NCBI GenBank assembly: GCA_023247255.1
Contig: JAHFGV010000026.1
Location: forward strand, 1 to 32,023
DNA length: 32,023 nt
Reading direction: 5' to 3'
Source: Candidatus Omnitrophota bacterium
Lineage (GTDB): Bacteria > Omnitrophota > Gorgyraeia > Aquiviventales > Aquiviventaceae
Part shown: one piece after another, positions 23,912 to 32,023 of the stretch
How the letters are laid out: each line of letters starts with the position of its first letter
Position numbering within the stretch: position 1 is the stretch's first letter
Notes under the pieces: model-generated
The model's input: only the letters and a program-made list of their open reading frames with translations
Databases searched by the model: none
What the model was told of the DNA's origin: nothing
Translations under genes and position numbers: made by a program

Positions 23912-25291
23912 TCAGAATTCAATACGCACCAGAACTCCGACTCCGGTTTCTCCACGATCCGCTCGAACATAGGGACTCAAGGTCCACGCATGGACCGCTT
24001 CTGGAGGCTCAAAGGCAGCAGCAGGAACTGTCGCCTGCGAGATGAGCGAACGCACCGCCAGGCCAATCAGCGCGGTGCTGGCAAGCATCGGGAGATGGTC
24101 GTGAAACTCACTGCCACTGGCCTCCTCAAAATTGGAAGTTAGGTAAATCCCCGCAAATACCAGTGCCCCTATAAGCGTTCCTGGAAACTCTCGTCTCACC
24201 AAAAGGTCCATCCGTGCGAGCATCCCAGGCTTGTATTTGCCAGTTTGATTTGCCTCCACCCGGTTCAGCCCGGCAGGGGGCAACGTGAGTTCATACAGGG
24301 ACGCAGGTGGGACACCCGAGCGTTGAAGAGCTTGTTCCAAGGTTATGGTAATCACGGGAGCCGACGGTGAAATTGACGACGCAATCTGAGGAACGGTTTC
24401 CTCCGTTAAAAAGCGACCCTGTGGAGCCCCACGGGACAAACCCATGGCACCGGTAAGTCCGCCGCGATGGGGGCGATATCCCACCCACCCGCTCGCTGAA
24501 GCAAACCATCTAGGCCCACGGTCAGGGGCCGTGGCCCGATGGCGGGGTCGCGAATCAATCCACCCCCGCCATGGCTCAAGGACGATGACGTGGAGTAAAA
24601 GCGCAGCAGAAACAATGCCAGCAATCGTTTGATATTCTTTGCGCAACTCATGAGTAGAAAAAGAAGCACGCAGACCGACTGAGGGCCACCTCAGCCGCGG
24701 CACCAGCCGAGGGACCTGGCGGCAAAATTCCTCATAGCCGGCACCAAACCGCTCTGTCAGAAAACGCTCTTCGGCCCGGATGATGCGGCTGTAGACAATG
24801 ACGAAATAGAGCGTGCAGGCGACTACGACCACCCAGGAATCTGTGAAACAGGCCAGGCCGAGGCAGAGCAGAAAGTTGCCTGCGTAAATGGGATTGCGAA
24901 TCATTGCGTAGGGCCCTTCTTGGACGAGTCGCTTGGCATTGGTAGAGGCTGATCGGGTTGCCGCCCCAACAATTCCTACGGCCCAAATACGCAGGGACTC
25001 ACCCAGCAGGATAAGCAACACCCCCGCTACCTCAGATACACCTCGCCATTGCGTCCATGAAGATGACTCGTTTGAAAGCAACCGGGTTGCAATTCCGATG
25101 AGTAAAAACGGAATGGGCAGATGATCGCGATGCCCAAACACCCAGGAATTCACACGGCCAGCACCCAGGCGGCGGCTTGTCATATACAAGCCGATTGCGA
25201 ATACGGCAAGTGCGGCAAAAAGAATCCATGGCCACGGCTGCATCATAATGGCGATATTATATCGCACCTCTGATCTCATCGCATCGTTCAT
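23912..25291 (-). CDS. Isoprenylcysteine carboxyl methyltransferase-like membrane methyltransferase with C-terminal extension
   Basis: GPYAMIRNPIYAGNFLLCLGLACFTDSW...SRIIRAEERFLTERFGAGYEEFCRQVPRLVPRL. Start refined to 25291 (or 25279/25246): the upstream part of the track ORF is antisense to the next gene. Confidence 0.85.
   Translation of the reverse strand: MNDAMRSEVRYNIAIMMQPWPWILFAALAVFAIGLYMTSRRLGAGRVNSWVFGHRDHLPIPFLLIGIATRLLSNESSSWTQWRGVSEVAGVLLILLGESLRIWAVGIVGAATRSASTNAKRLVQEGPYAMIRNPIYAGNFLLCLGLACFTDSWVVVVACTLYFVIVYSRIIRAEERFLTERFGAGYEEFCRQVPRLVPRLRWPSVGLRASFSTHELRKEYQTIAGIVSAALLLHVIVLEPWRGWIDSRPRHRATAPDRGPRWFASASGWVGYRPHRGGLTGAMGLSRGAPQGRFLTEETVPQIASSISPSAPVITITLEQALQRSGVPPASLYELTLPPAGLNRVEANQTGKYKPGMLARMDLLVRREFPGTLIGALVFAGIYLTSNFEEASGSEFHDHLPMLASTALIGLAVRSLISQATVPAAAFEPPEAVHAWTLSPYVRADRGETGVGVLVRIEF
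24421..24549 (-). repeat. 129-bp ORF-embedded repeat, copy 2
   Basis: About 76% hand-counted identity with copy 3 over 129 ungapped positions. Confidence 0.85.
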
Positions 25292-25362: not shown

Positions 25363-28257
25363 ATGAAGGAACACATCCACCGCGCAAGACAAAATGAGTG
25401 GTGGGAATTTGTGGAGCCCCACAAGATAAGCCAGTGGCATCGGCAACTCCGCCCCGCGTGGGGCGACATCCCGCCCACCCAATCATTGAAGCAAACCAAC
25501 TGGGCCCTATGCCTTCGGCCGAGGCCCGATGGCTGGGTTGAAACAAATCCTGATGGGCCGGCTTCAGGAACGTTCCGCGCCTGCCAAAGGAATCTTGGCC
25601 GGCTCTACTTTCCCATCGCCAATGAAGCCGGAATGCTTTCATGGACTTCGCCACAGCTCCATGGCTCTGCGGCCATCAGCCACCATGAACACCTTTCAGT
25701 GCCATTAACTGCTGAGGATCTGCCACACACCCTGGTCCATCGCGATTTCTGGATCGTGGAAGAATCTCATCGGCCCTTTTCCGTGGCCGGCCTTTCACCC
25801 GAAGAACTCAGCCCGCGTCATCATCCATCCTCAGAAACAGGCATTGAAGCAGGCATCGGATGGTTTACCCTGAACCGACGCGGACCGAACCGCCGATTTC
25901 TAGCCACAGCCACCCTCTGGTGTCCTGCCGATTTCCATGAACCCGTGGAAATCCTGCGGGTGGTCGTAACCAACACATCTTCGCATCCAATTCGATTCAT
26001 TCCCTACGCCGCCATCCCCTTGTTTTGCCGCTCAGCGGACAACGTACGCGATCATCGACACGTAACCGCGCTGTTGCACCGGGTCGAACTTTTGAAATAC
26101 GGACTCCACATCCAACCCGCCATGTCCTTTGACGAACGCGGACACAAACCCAACACTACCCAGTACACCATCCTTGCACTTGGCCCCCAAGCAACTCCCC
26201 CAACGGATATCTGGGCGCTGGAGGAGGATTTTCTGGGCGACAGCGGCACGTTCGCTGCACCCAAAGCAGTTTGGAATCGACAACGTGCTGCGATTTACTC
26301 CTCGGAAAAACTCTCCGGCCGAGAAGCCATCGGGGGATTTCGTTTTGCTCCGCGCACGTTGGCTCCTAAAGATCAGGCCACCTACTGCCTGATCTCTGGA
26401 ATTTCTCACGATCCCCAACGCCACCGTCACTGGCTGCGATGGGCACGTCAGCTTCATACTATCCATCGGTCGCTTGAGAAGACGAAAAGTCATTGGCTCA
26501 ACCACACGCGACGCATCACGTTCTTTACATCGGACCGACCGCTCGATCACTGGCTGGCTTGGGTAAATGCCCAACCTATTTTCCGTCGGCTGTACGGCAA
26601 TTCTTACCTTCCCCAGTTCGACTATGGACGCGGCGGACGGGGCTGGCGCGACCTCTGGCAGGATTGCTTGGCCCTGTTACTGTCCGACCCTAAAGAGGCG
26701 CGGCCTCTGCTTCTGTATAACACAGCAGGGATCCGGATCGATGGCTCAAACGCAACCATCATTGAACGGGATGGCACTTTCAGTGCTGATCGCAATAACA
26801 TCCCCCGGACATGGATGGACCACGGCATCTGGCCGGTGCATACAATCTTGCTCTATCTGGACCAGACCGTCGACGTTGAGCTCCTTCTGGAAAATCAGAC
26901 TTATTTCCGCGATCCTCAAATCTTGCGTTGTCGTCAACTCGATCCTCGCTGGAGCCCAGCCTACGGACTTAGGCTTCGCACCCGTCGGGGTCGCATCTAT
27001 CAGGGCTCGGTCCTTGAACATCTGCTCGTTCAGACACTGACGGCTTTCTTCAACGTTGGCGAGCATAACGTTTGTCGTCTGGAAGGCGCGGATTGGAACG
27101 ATGGACTGGACATGGCCTCTCACCGAGGAGAGTCGGTAGCCTTCAGCGCCTTTTACGCATGGAACCTGAAACGGCTGGCAGAGTTAATGTCATGGCTCTC
27201 CACACGTGGGATAAAGACGATCGAAGTCTTTGAGGAACTCATCCTTTTGTTGGATCGACTCCCCGCTCAAGAGCCCATTCATTATCGAAGCGCGCAAGCC
27301 AAGCGTAAGCGTTTAAACCAATATCTGGATAGAGTCTCGCACGACATTTCAGGTGAGCGCACCCACGTTCGGCTGCAAGTGCTTGCGGCTGATCTGATGC
27401 AAAAATGCGAAGATTTATCCGAACGCATCCGGAAACAAGAATGGGTGAGAGCTCAGGGAGAGCAATTTTTCAACGGCTACTACGATGATCGAGGCCGACG
27501 TGTGGAAGGCAATCATTCGAAAGGAATCCGCCTGACTCTGACCGGACAAGTCTTTCCGGTCATGACGGGAATGGCTACTGATGTCCAACTCAAGCGTGTC
27601 GTTCGCGCAGTCAATAGATGGCTGCGCGATCCTAAGACCGGTGGAATTCGCCTCAATACGGACTTCAAGGAACCGCAACCGCACTTAGGACGGGCGTTCT
27701 GTTTTGCCTACGGCGACAAAGAAAACGGGGCCGTCTTCTCGCACATGGCCGTCATGTACGCCTATGCCCTCTACGTACGACGACAAGCCCACGAAGGCCG
27801 AAAGGTCTGGAGTAACCTCTATCGAATGGCAACGAATCAGGCAATAGCCAAGATCTTCCCTTGCCTGCCTGAGTATTTCAATCGCAACGGCCGGGGAATG
27901 TACTGTTACCTAACCGGATCGGCTTCATGGCTGGTGTATCTGCTGTTGACTCAAGTCTATGGAATCCGCGGGGAGCGTGGGGATTTGGTCATCGATCCGC
28001 AGTTGACTCGGGAGGACTTTGGAGATCATCACGCTATCGCCGTCGAAACTTCATTCGCCGAACGCCGCCTGCGGATTCATATCGCAAACCCCAAACGTCT
28101 TCGGCCGGGCGAATACGCAGTCCTCGACGTGCGCACCGGAGACAGGTCAGTTCCCTTCACGACACGCTCAGAAGGTGGAGTACGAATCGTGCGTCGAGTC
28201 CTTGAACAACTTCCCGCCACCCATTGCCACCTCCTGTCCATCAGCCTCGGACGATAG
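25363..28257 (+). CDS. GH94-family phosphorylase-like protein (cellobiose phosphorylase / cyclic glucan-related)
   Basis: 964 aa; SADNVRDHRHVTALLHRVEL; RGWRDLWQDCLALL; LEGADWNDGLDMASHRGESVAFSAFYAWNLK. Confidence 0.9.
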   Translation: MKEHIHRARQNEWWEFVEPHKISQWHRQLRPAWGDIPPTQSLKQTNWALCLRPRPDGWVETNPDGPASGTFRACQRNLGRLYFPIANEAGMLSWTSPQLHGSAAISHHEHLSVPLTAEDLPHTLVHRDFWIVEESHRPFSVAGLSPEELSPRHHPSSETGIEAGIGWFTLNRRGPNRRFLATATLWCPADFHEPVEILRVVVTNTSSHPIRFIPYAAIPLFCRSADNVRDHRHVTALLHRVELLKYGLHIQPAMSFDERGHKPNTTQYTILALGPQATPPTDIWALEEDFLGDSGTFAAPKAVWNRQRAAIYSSEKLSGREAIGGFRFAPRTLAPKDQATYCLISGISHDPQRHRHWLRWARQLHTIHRSLEKTKSHWLNHTRRITFFTSDRPLDHWLAWVNAQPIFRRLYGNSYLPQFDYGRGGRGWRDLWQDCLALLLSDPKEARPLLLYNTAGIRIDGSNATIIERDGTFSADRNNIPRTWMDHGIWPVHTILLYLDQTVDVELLLENQTYFRDPQILRCRQLDPRWSPAYGLRLRTRRGRIYQGSVLEHLLVQTLTAFFNVGEHNVCRLEGADWNDGLDMASHRGESVAFSAFYAWNLKRLAELMSWLSTRGIKTIEVFEELILLLDRLPAQEPIHYRSAQAKRKRLNQYLDRVSHDISGERTHVRLQVLAADLMQKCEDLSERIRKQEWVRAQGEQFFNGYYDDRGRRVEGNHSKGIRLTLTGQVFPVMTGMATDVQLKRVVRAVNRWLRDPKTGGIRLNTDFKEPQPHLGRAFCFAYGDKENGAVFSHMAVMYAYALYVRRQAHEGRKVWSNLYRMATNQAIAKIFPCLPEYFNRNGRGMYCYLTGSASWLVYLLLTQVYGIRGERGDLVIDPQLTREDFGDHHAIAVETSFAERRLRIHIANPKRLRPGEYAVLDVRTGDRSVPFTTRSEGGVRIVRRVLEQLPATHCHLLSISLGR
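25411..25539 (-). repeat. 129-bp ORF-embedded repeat, copy 3
   Basis: GTGGAGCCCCACAAGATAAGCCAGTGGCAT...GAGGCCCGATGGCTGGGTT. Confidence 0.85.
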
Positions 28258-28312
28258 CTACCCACGTGGAGCCCCGCCATCGGGCCATGGCCGAAGGCAT
28301 CGGCAGAGACGA

Positions 28313-28397
28313 GGAAATTGTCGATTGTCGATTTTGGATTTTCGATTGAACGGCCGTCTTCCAATCGAAAATCCAAAATCGACAATCGAAAATTCCC
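28313..28397. repeat. 36-bp-arm hairpin repeat between convergent genes (terminator or repeat element)
   Basis: GGAAATTGTCGATTGTCGATTTTGGATTTTCGATTG / CAATCGAAAATCCAAAATCGACAATCGAAAATTCCC, 2 mismatches, 13-nt loop. Confidence 0.9.
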
Positions 28398-28413
28398 AGG
28401 CGGTTTCATGATT

Positions 28414-28495
28414 CCTGAGTTCAAGTTTCTAGCGCAACACCTGTATCCTGGTCTGACCCAGGAGAAAGGAGTTGCGCTAGAAACTTGAACTCAGG
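28414..28495. repeat. Perfect 25-bp inverted repeat at HEPN 3' end
   Basis: CCTGAGTTCAAGTTTCTAGCGCAAC (28414-28438) / GTTGCGCTAGAAACTTGAACTCAGG (28471-28495). Confidence 0.95.
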
Positions 28496-28777
28496 AAAGT
28501 AAAAAGCCGATGCCTCTTGACACAATGCGCGATATTGTTCGAGAGACGGTATCCAGGTGACGACTTCATCAAGCAAGAAACTTAGATTATGGCTTCGCTG
28601 TAATATCCAGCCTCGCGCGATGAGGAACCCTTTCAGGGCTTTCTCAATGGCCTGCTGCAAGTGAAAGGCAGCATCATCGGTATCCCCATATTCAAGGAAA
28701 CGAGGCACTCGCTGCAAGCCCTGTTGAGCTTTACGGAACCACTCGGAAGGATCGCGTGAGTCTCGTTCAGGCGGCAT
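28421..28777 (-). CDS. HEPN domain protein, apparently C-terminally truncated
   Basis: PSEWFRKAQQGLQRVPRFLEYGDTDDAAFHLQQAIEKALKGFLIARGWILQRSHNLSFLLDEV; normal sequence lost after FYFPE. Confidence 0.85.
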   Translation of the reverse strand: MPPERDSRDPSEWFRKAQQGLQRVPRFLEYGDTDDAAFHLQQAIEKALKGFLIARGWILQRSHNLSFLLDEVVTWIPSLEQYRALCQEASAFYFPEFKFLAQLLSPGSDQDTGVALET

Positions 28778-29100
28778 AAAGAATCTCACCGCGGTTAAAA
28801 ACTTCCTCTAAGAAAGGATCGCGCGCACGCTGCTTGCGGGTGATTTCTCCAGGGGTCATCACTATGGGGGAGAAATCAATACCCTTCACAACAAGGCTGC
28901 ACCAGTTGAGAAACCTCCGCCCATCGCCGATGAAACGGCTGATCCGTATCCTTAACGATCAGCAGATCCACATCGTTCTCCTTTGTTGGCTCTCCATAGG
29001 CCAAAGAGCCAAACAAAATGGTTCGCTCAGGGTGGTAGTTTTTCTTGAGCAACGCGACCACTTGATCAATGGCGGTTTGTAGTCGATAAGGCCTTTGCAT
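28767..29100 (-). pseudogene. MNT-type nucleotidyltransferase (HEPN partner), +1 frameshift
   Basis: MQRPYRLQTAIDQVVALLKKNYHPERTILFGSLAYGEPTKENDVDLLIVKDTDQPFHRRWAEVSQLVQP | shift | KGIDFSPIVMTPGEITRKQRARDPFLEEVFNRGEILYAA*. Confidence 0.85.
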
Positions 29101-29208
29101 GGGAAACCTTTGCGCCCTTATACCATGTCGACTGCCCCGGTGTTCTGTCGCGGGCTTGGCCGGAGCTACACCCTCAGCGTTCCAAGCCACTGGATCCGGA
29201 TTCTATCT

Positions 29209-29300
29209 GCTGATCCAACTCCTTGGGCAGAGACGACAGGCTCCGATGGCCGTCAGCGAGATCCATTATTTAGGGGAGCCTTCTTCTTCACGAACTCCAC
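29209..29300. repeat. 92-bp direct repeat A (copy of 3' end of the peptidase gene)
   Basis: 85/92 hand-counted matches with 30018-30109, no gaps. Confidence 0.92.
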
Positions 29301-29322
29301 TCGGGCAATGAGACGGATTCTC

Positions 29323-29381
29323 TTGACTAGAGCATACTTCTATGGCAAAATTTGCATAATGGATATGCTAGAAAAAGGAGG
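29323..29381 (+). promoter_or_regulatory. Putative vapBC promoter/operator and SD
   Basis: TTGACT, 17-nt spacer, CAAAAT; inverted GCAAAATTTGC and GCATAATGGATATGC; AGGAGG at 29376-29381. Confidence 0.45.
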
Positions 29382-29386
29382 AAAAG

Positions 29387-29587
29387 ATGCGCACAACGTT
29401 GGATATCCCTGACCAACTTATGGCAGAGGCCCTTCGGGCGACACAGGCGAAGACGAAAACCACAGTGATTATCTTAGGATTACAGGAACTCATCAACCGA
29501 CATCGCCTGAATCAACTCCGAACCCTGCGAGGCAACCTACCCCTCACTACTCATGTCAGCAAAGCTCGAAAGCGAACCTCCGCTTGA
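29387..29587 (+). CDS. vapB: VapB-family antitoxin
   Basis: MRTTLDIPDQLMAEALRATQAKTKTTVIILGLQELINRHRLNQL; overlaps a PIN toxin gene. Confidence 0.9.
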   Translation: MRTTLDIPDQLMAEALRATQAKTKTTVIILGLQELINRHRLNQLRTLRGNLPLTTHVSKARKRTSA

Positions 29588-29987
29588 GGCCGGTTTAGTC
29601 CTGGTAGATACCTCGGTGTGGATCACTTTTTTTCGCAGTGCCGAGTCTTCTACCACCCGTCTTCTTGACCAGTTGCTCGCTATCGGACCTGTTGCGATTT
29701 GTGCGCCCATTCGCGCCGAGGTCATCTCCGGAGCGCCAACCCGGAGCGATTTTCAGCGACTGCGAACATTCTTTAGCAGCTTGACAGACCTGCCGCTGCC
29801 TCCGAATCTTTGGAACGACCTTGAGGAATCTCGCTTTGCCTTAGCCCGAGAAGGTTATCAAGCATCGCTTATTGACTTGATGATCGCCCATACTGCCCAA
29901 TGGCATCAAGTACCCCTCTGGAGTCTTGACCAGGATTTCCACCGCATCGCTGCAGTCGTTCCCCTACGCTGGTATCCTCCACGATAA
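29553..29987 (+). CDS. vapC: PIN-domain VapC toxin
   Basis: VLVDTSVWITFFR...PVAICAPIRAEVISGA...GYQASLIDLMIAHTAQWHQVPLWSLDQDFHRIA. Confidence 0.93.
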   Translation: MSAKLESEPPLEAGLVLVDTSVWITFFRSAESSTTRLLDQLLAIGPVAICAPIRAEVISGAPTRSDFQRLRTFFSSLTDLPLPPNLWNDLEESRFALAREGYQASLIDLMIAHTAQWHQVPLWSLDQDFHRIAAVVPLRWYPPR

Positions 29988-30017
29988 AAAAAGCTGGTGC
30001 TTAACCAGACTCCGTCG

Positions 30018-30109
30018 GCTGATCCGACTCCTTGGGCAGAGGCGGCAGGCTCCGATGGCCGTCAGCGAGATCCATCATTTAGGGGAACCCTCTTCTTCAC
30101 GAACTCAAC
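30018..30109. repeat. 92-bp direct repeat B (native 3' end of the peptidase gene)
   Basis: See repeat A. Confidence 0.92.
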
Positions 30110-32023
30110 CTGCTTGATGGCAAAGGGGATGCCGTACTCCTTCTCACCGGAATAACACCTCACAATAAACCCTTTGAGCCCTCCCTCCCGCTCAGCATAG
30201 CGCTTCAAATCTCCGGATGAAATATGGATTTCAGAACTTCCTGCAGGGAGTAGCTCTATTCTCCAAAGTCTGCCTGTAGATTCCAAATTTTCGATGTTAT
30301 TACCGTGTACCGACATCACCGAAGGACTAGTTATCGCCGTGACTATACCAACAGCAGCCTCGCGTGTTTCAAGATGAATGATGATTTCCTCAAATGGGCT
30401 TAGATCAACGAGCTCGTCGAACAAAAGCTCGGCCAATCCTCCTGGCTGTAAGGTCTCCTTAAAGAATTTCTCTGGTTCGGAAAATGGGTCAATCGAGCCG
30501 TCTTCAGAAATCCCCCCTGTGTGAATTCCTAGCAGAGTAAGACGATAGCGGTAATAATAAAGACTGTTGAATACCCGTGGGAGATCGGGAAATTGTCTCC
30601 TGGTATTGCCAAGCCAGGGGATCACAATAGATTCTCGATCCGGCTTGACTGTTTGTGGCGGCTGTGGCACAGCCCTCGATGGCTGAAGCTGCTCTGGAGG
30701 AATGATCTCAATGCTGATCGGTGGAGGCTCTTCTTTCTCAGGGAGAGAGATCCTTTTTGTCACTTCCTGTTGAAGCCTCGCTCGCATGGCTTCTTCAATG
30801 GGAATTGGGCTAGGTCGAAAAAGCAAGAGGGCAACTGCAACGACAGTAGCCGGCAGAGCCAATTTAATCGTTTCCTGAGTGACCGTAAGCCAGCTTGCTC
30901 GAATCTGTCTCACTCCCTGCTTTATCCTACCCAGCCAGCCTGTCTGGCGCTTCAATATGCTTGGGCTGTGCACACGAAGAGCAACTAGAGGACGCATGAT
31001 GAATAGGGCACTCGTTGTCAGAAGGGTTACTAGAGCAAGGAGTCGAGGAGGCCACCAGACAAGAGGCGCTTCAATAAACTCAAGATAGGCCAGCAGCCAT
31101 CCAGAGACAGCAGCGATCACAAAGGCAATGCCCATCCCAGAGAACTTCCGCATCTCGGATCGGATCTGCTCGCGCAGCGGTCGACTCACAAATTCCCGTC
31201 CCTGGAATACAAAATCACGCAGAACCTCGTATTTCCTGAGCAGTCCTCCTCCCACCCGTTCGACTTTGCGCTTGAACGCCTCTGGAAAAACCATGTAGGT
31301 GGCAAAGAGATCCGCGGCCTCTTCATCTCGACTGACGAAGGAATACCCAGTCAAAATGGACCAGGGCTTCGTGGAATCGAAGACCTCTATCTCATCCGTC
31401 AGGAAATCCCCGAAGAGCCAGATGATCATGCGGTTGACAAGGCCTCCTGTTATGAACGAAACAAGACCTCCGATGAGCAAAGTGCAGACTAAACCCAGAA
31501 TGAAGAGGGGACCACCGATTGGTAAAAATACGCTAAGAAACGCTGCGGTGAGCGGCACTGCAAACAGCGTGGAGAGGGCAAGCTCCAGAGCCAGGACAAA
31601 CAGTGCTCCCCACACCCGTTCCCGTGGATTGATGGAACGCCAGGACTCACGTGAAATGGCACTCATGGCATCCGGGTGATGTTCCATCACCACATGGCCG
31701 AGCTCATGCGCAAAGACCCATTGAAACGCGGCGCGATGGGGCATCAGCACGGCATTGAGGTGAGAGCCGCCGCTCACATGCCCCCCGACGCCAGCCAACA
31801 AAAATCCAAGGCTTCTATACCAAGGAACCAATCGAATTCGCGAAAGGCCGCTGCGGTCATCATCGGAAAGGCGCCTGAGCATGATCAGTATGTCTTCGAG
31901 ATATTCGACCGATGCCCATTGCCAGCCGATAAACTTTTTATCCTCCATCCGCCACCCCAGTAATTCATTAATCGTTTGTGCAAGCCGTCGTTTCTCTGCG
32001 AGCCGTGGGATGAGCCACCCCGG
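30062..32023 (-). CDS. Large multi-TM HExxH metallopeptidase-like membrane protein, 5' end beyond window
   Basis: FQWVFAHELGHVVMEHH; several TM segments; the frame stays open to 32023 (PGWLIPRLAEKRRLAQTINELLGWRMEDKKFIGWQW). Confidence 0.8.
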   Translation of the reverse strand, partial: PGWLIPRLAEKRRLAQTINELLGWRMEDKKFIGWQWASVEYLEDILIMLRRLSDDDRSGLSRIRLVPWYRSLGFLLAGVGGHVSGGSHLNAVLMPHRAAFQWVFAHELGHVVMEHHPDAMSAISRESWRSINPRERVWGALFVLALELALSTLFAVPLTAAFLSVFLPIGGPLFILGLVCTLLIGGLVSFITGGLVNRMIIWLFGDFLTDEIEVFDSTKPWSILTGYSFVSRDEEAADLFATYMVFPEAFKRKVERVGGGLLRKYEVLRDFVFQGREFVSRPLREQIRSEMRKFSGMGIAFVIAAVSGWLLAYLEFIEAPLVWWPPRLLALVTLLTTSALFIMRPLVALRVHSPSILKRQTGWLGRIKQGVRQIRASWLTVTQETIKLALPATVVAVALLLFRPSPIPIEEAMRARLQQEVTKRISLPEKEEPPPISIEIIPPEQLQPSRAVPQPPQTVKPDRESIVIPWLGNTRRQFPDLPRVFNSLYYYRYRLTLLGIHTGGISEDGSIDPFSEPEKFFKETLQPGGLAELLFDELVDLSPFEEIIIHLETREAAVGIVTAITSPSVMSVHGNNIENLESTGRLWRIELLPAGSSEIHISSGDLKRYAEREGGLKGFIVRCYSGEKEYGIPFAIKQVEFVKKRVPLNDGSR

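Follow-up and report, generated by a model that had tools for sequence, protein, structure and literature searches.

Integrative elements that recombine at tRNA genes or other att sites restore the 3′ end of their target gene and leave a displaced fragment of that end on the far side of the insert. Integrons, in turn, can hold arrays of toxin-antitoxin (TA) cassettes separated by repeats, which there are attC hairpins served by an integron integrase. Chromosomal TA modules lack mobility genes, and a scar left at a gene end bears on how they enter chromosomes. The closest described process concerns restriction-modification systems, whose insertion is accompanied by long, variable target duplications on the order of 100 bp (PMC3874152, citing Furuta 2010 and Nobusato 2000; also PMC1643837 and PMC3154945). 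A review of TA systems cites insertion with long target duplication for restriction-modification systems only (PMC2654758). The searchable literature contained no report of such insertion for TA modules, and the matches for the two subjects together were all reviews or papers that cite it in connection with restriction-modification; since most subscription papers lie outside it, this absence is weak evidence of novelty.

A vapBC module between two copies of a gene end

The window (the whole stretch of DNA analyzed, 32,023 bp) is one whole contig of a 2.18-Mb assembly, with the contig end at position 32023. A repeat finder returned an ungapped pair of 105-bp direct repeats at 29196 to 29300 (copy A) and 30005 to 30109 (copy B), with 89% identity and a spacing of 809 bp. 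An earlier, sequence-only reading of this DNA had reported a 92-bp repeat, and we found the same match: 29209 to 29300 and 30018 to 30109 agree at 85 of 92 positions, with 7 mismatches and no gaps. As that reading had also proposed, copy B (minus strand) lies at the 3′ end of the neighboring gene, of which it holds the last 15 codons (about 16 had been counted) and the stop, followed by 57 bp. Copy A (minus strand) is a displaced duplicate of this end on the other side of vapBC, likewise with 15 codons, the stop, and 57 bp of downstream sequence, and its frame and stop are kept. The coding ends of copies A and B read VEFVKKKAPLNNGSR and VEFVKKRVPLNDGSR, respectively, each followed by the stop, and they differ by three amino-acid changes. 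The intact gene (30062 to 31948, minus strand) encodes 628 amino acids with an HELGH motif and membrane segments; its Pfam matches, to Peptidase_M78 and M48, are below threshold, and the name peptidase is a fair, if unproven, one.

The assembly contains exactly two copies of the repeat (E values of 1.5e-49 and 2.6e-33); the third-ranked match has an E value of 0.1, which excludes a chance origin of the repeat, and the 11% divergence between the copies makes an assembly artifact unlikely. The same search bears on the idea that dispersed repeats, such as MITE or RayT-type sequences, happen to flank the module. Repeats of this kind are likely at two of the other loci described below (L129 and L042/L176), and palindromic families lie 700 to 900 bp to the left of the window repeat. 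However, the 105-bp repeat has only its two genome copies, consists of gene sequence, and shows no folding signal in either copy (z scores of +0.84 and +1.08), and we regard chance flanking by dispersed repeats as scarcely credible. The absence of a folding signal also led us to reject an RNA or hairpin function for the repeat.

Between the copies lies an insert of 704 bp (29301 to 30004, plus strand), composed of a promoter region and vapBC and equal in GC content to its flanks. vapB (29387 to 29587, plus strand; 66 amino acids; PF09957, E value of 6.6e-12) overlaps by 35 bp with vapC (29553 to 29987, plus strand; 144 amino acids; PF01850, E value of 9.1e-12). The module recognized in the earlier reading is complete, with both proteins above the Pfam cutoffs. 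In its gene order (vapB, then an overlapping vapC of the PIN family), its pair of domains, and its acidic residues, it resembles type II VapBC systems. The PIN acidic residues are intact (D19, E56, D108, D126, and D128 of VapC are invariant in a six-sequence alignment), and the relatives with solved structures in the PDB are VapC21, VapC11, and VapC15. The module itself is ordinary, with toxin and antitoxin activities that are predicted from sequence, and the bracketing is its sole unusual trait. VapC matches on plasmids were all distant; no plasmid relatives of the locus DNA were found, and viral contigs contained neither a match to the repeat nor a relative of VapC.

Beyond copy A, on the side away from vapBC, is an MNT nucleotidyltransferase reading frame (28876 to 29190, minus strand), partner of a HEPN-domain gene (28421 to 28789, minus strand). 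The two form a second TA-like pair (28421 to 29190) adjoining vapBC, and the gene end does not occur a third time beyond it. Farther out lie long, imperfect palindromes of two MITE- or REPIN-like families (28305 to 28419 and 28404 to 28497), with roughly 40 and 15 genome copies, and a linked element of about 33 bp (28272 to 28304). A 142-bp direct repeat (24420 to 24561 and 25410 to 25551; 75% identity) resembles the GTGGAGCCCC...GGCCCGATGGC element near 28272.

How does this anatomy compare with the systems above? As in insertion with long target duplication, a small addiction-type module without a mobility gene sits between long direct repeats of its target (105 bp, 89% identity). The cargo differs, being vapBC (or, at other loci, other TA pairs) rather than the restriction-modification systems originally described; moreover, the duplicated piece is typically a gene terminus, the copies have diverged with coding-type substitutions, and the modules stack. 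The window locus thus resembles insertion with long target duplication and might be viewed as a variant of it, not as a member. As with integrative elements, the gene end is restored and a displaced fragment lies beyond the insert, but the TA inserts lack an integrase, are about 0.7 kb long, and use varied targets at both 5′ and 3′ ends. Arrays of TA cassettes with repeats between them recall integrons, although here the repeats are ends of host genes without a folding signal and the insert carries no integrase. Unlike a composite or classical transposon, the window insert has no terminal inverted repeats, flanking insertion sequences, or short target duplication. Finally, homology-facilitated illegitimate recombination, in which one joint is homologous and the other illegitimate, would produce exactly the anatomy seen here, the gene end being a foreign one. 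We know of no description of this process as a route for TA modules, and a literature search pairing the two found none.

Recurrence at other TA modules

Taken alone, the window locus is of limited interest; it is recurrence that gives it value. Among 36 vapC loci inspected at the outset, several showed the same bracketed anatomy. In the first defined set, consisting of VapB-family loci, direct repeats scoring at least 34 bits bracketed 6 of 38 modules and 10 of 558 shifted placements; at 40 bits, the corresponding counts were 5 of 38 and 6 of 558. The 40-bit threshold was fixed on this set before replication on 80 new PIN-toxin loci, where 11 of 78 PIN loci were bracketed compared with 2 of 325 shifted placements (p = 4e-7). 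Pooling the data within the same class, with the window left out, gave 15 bracketed vapBC/PIN modules out of 115, against 8 of 883 random placements (p = 8e-10).

A stricter control used small gene units (420 to 950 bp) taken from the same regions, and here the difference was smaller: 14 of 115 modules versus 7 of 166 units (p = 0.012). Three of the 7 bracketed units are themselves TA modules, and their post hoc removal gives p = 0.001. Both of the strong control matches in the second set bracket or adjoin TA modules (RHH/ParE at L255 and Phd/YefM at L281). Every region surveyed had been picked for containing a TA module. The association with TA modules is real, and the estimate of its specificity is modest.

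Several loci first counted as bracketed were left out of the gene-end cases. The repeat at L042/L176 is RayT associated, that at L129 is a 25-mer, short and similar to a dispersed repeat, the brackets at L043 and L228 come from paralogous genes, and at L258 the repeat falls within one long open reading frame.

These counts matter for another alternative, namely, that ordinary local rearrangement duplicated the gene end here in a single event, tandem or displaced, that had nothing to do with the arrival of vapBC. The window locus by itself is compatible with such an event, and a few non-TA genes are also bracketed (L241, L173, and L149); at L241 (1827 to 2953), for instance, a formate/nitrite transporter gene lies within 164-bp direct repeats of 96% identity. 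Yet a local accident does not account for the presence of gene-end repeats, set tightly against the module, at roughly one vapBC module in eight, nor would it or a tandem duplication explain the triplicated ends described below, and we consider it distinctly unlikely. With this frequency among the vapBC modules of the lineage, a duplicated terminus is a recurrent and recognizable scar by which insertions can be found directly and the empty site named.

Duplicated and triplicated gene ends

In about nine of the 15 bracketed modules, the repeated sequence is one end of the gene next to the module. Gene starts are duplicated at queA (58 bp, at L061, where VapC is 53% identical to that of the window), at thrS (39 bp, below the test threshold), and at an amidohydrolase gene (57 bp). 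The duplicated 3′ ends are those of glmS (105 bp), prfB (61 bp), a glycosyltransferase gene (66 bp), recG (about 45 to 70 bp), a Wzy_C ligase gene (about 45 to 55 bp), and two further genes that are unassigned. In two weaker cases (L158 and L130), the repeat lies just beyond the stop of the gene. At the glmS locus (L225, 2657 to 3580), a PIN module sits downstream of glmS together with the displaced 105-bp glmS end, in the region known as the Tn7 attachment site; the insert contains no Tn7 genes.

The inserts at the bracketed loci are compact (677 to 1070 bp). This compactness, the reconstitution of gene ends, and the serial accretion described next recall att-site elements, and one could imagine a mobile islet moved by a site-specific recombinase that acts in trans on gene ends. 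The inserts, however, show no recombinase gene, no common end sequence, and no terminal inverted repeats beyond 8 nucleotides, and their targets are unrelated. The window insert agrees with this: it holds vapBC only, with no integrase or recombinase gene, and the longest inverted match between its ends is 4 nucleotides. The sequence-only reading had likened the arrangement to that of some integrating islets; in the sense of an integrase element, this likeness is not borne out by these features, and we judge a recombinase-driven islet to be very improbable.

Three gene ends are present in triplicate, with a different TA or ATPase module in each interval. At L268 (1510 to 3792), the order is gene, MNT/HepT pair, copy, PIN module, copy; at L265 (2155 to 4026), it is recG, PIN module, copy, Phd/ParE pair, copy; and at L171 (5899 to 8292), it is Wzy_C gene, AAA_14/DUF4143 module, copy, vapBC, copy. 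Triplicated ends separated by different modules imply serial insertion, the best explanation being that one module after another arrived at the same gene end. As arrays, the three loci are cassette-like and yet have no integron.

Origin of the second copy and a possible route of entry

An empty site is available at queA. Relatives of the genome in question possess queA without vapBC, and when the left flank, the left copy, and the body of queA are joined, they are colinear with the queA genes of five relatives, including some 20 nucleotides upstream of the left copy. This colinearity indicates that the left copy and its upstream sequence are the resident gene start and that vapBC and the right copy were added. 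At the window itself, relatives are less helpful. Searches across the family, class, and phylum returned few relatives of the peptidase gene, all partial and 26 to 34% identical; two scans of GTDB contigs returned none, and the gene with its 3′ end was absent from all genomes searched. The closest relatives of the VapBC pair (in G013, G025, and G014, with VapC identities of 62, 60, and 50%, respectively) have no repeat bracket.

Where did the second copy come from? One possibility is that the process of insertion doubled some 40 to 105 bp of the gene end in situ and that the spare copy then drifted. Consistent with drift, three of the four coding differences in the window alter an amino acid, and in the displaced glmS copy, nonconservative changes fall close to the conserved C terminus, a stretch in which the gene copy matches glmS of G021 (DIDQPPNLAKSVTVE versus DIDQLLNLAKSVTVE). 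Over all pairs, however, the differences concentrate at third codon positions. Drift after an in situ duplication would spread them over codon positions, whereas the eight coding pairs show 9, 15, and 37 differences at positions 1, 2, and 3 (p = 2e-5 against uniformity), a pattern that suggests a foreign end. Synonymous differences make up 31 of 61 (51%), against 29% expected. An in situ model in which the gene copy is under purifying selection weakens the contrast: by a rough estimate it would give about 46% third-position differences, and the 61% seen is only moderately higher (p = 0.015); the synonymous share is compatible with that model (p = 0.13). The four coding differences in the window fall 1, 2, and 1 by codon position and are uninformative on a foreign gene end. 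At queA, each variant of the displaced copy but one also occurs in orthologues, and the two copies match the relatives equally well (202 versus 202 matches), which speaks against in situ duplication. On balance, we think in situ duplication rather unlikely. The codon-position pattern and the queA variants instead suggest that the modules bring a foreign gene end with them, for which they are support and not proof.

The reading that we prefer is that vapBC probably entered beside the peptidase-like gene, at its 3′ end, as a minimal cassette of about 700 bp that came to have a gene end on either side. The sequence-only reading had already suggested that the module arrived with a reconstituted gene end; this is still the best account of the locus, although its support comes from the other loci and not from this one. 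Copy A and its outer flank would then probably be the original end of the resident gene, and the cassette with copy B would have restored an intact gene end. The incoming DNA presumably brought along a slightly diverged version of that gene end and would have recombined homologously within it, whether as a circle made up of the cassette and a single gene end or as a linear fragment joined homologously on one side and illegitimately on the other. Joining of this kind would make a dedicated enzyme unnecessary, and the scar permits testing of whether ordinary homologous recombination suffices. Given the recurrence, we infer that gene-end insertion may let TA pairs enter chromosomes without breaking the adjoining gene. 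This would join TA modules with the restriction-modification systems, for which insertion with long duplications was proposed.

A broader and more tentative idea, which we offer as possible rather than probable, is that TA modules move as integrase-free cassettes that dock by homology with the end of whichever gene they adjoin. The two gene-end copies would recombine and release a circle of the cassette plus one gene end; in a different cell, this circle could dock at the corresponding gene, leave it restored, and stack with other cassettes into arrays such as those at recG, L268, and the Wzy_C gene.

Two other duplications were noted during the survey. At L255 (679 to 1596), a RelE/ParE-type TA pair lies between 113-bp copies (94% identity) of the 3′ end of a transposase-like gene, which has a DnaA_C helix-turn-helix and another partial copy of its end upstream. 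At L150 (7284 to 8873), a 50-bp duplicate (94% identity) of the 5′ half of a tRNA-Ala-like gene lies about 1.5 kb from the intact copy and perhaps marks an integrated element.
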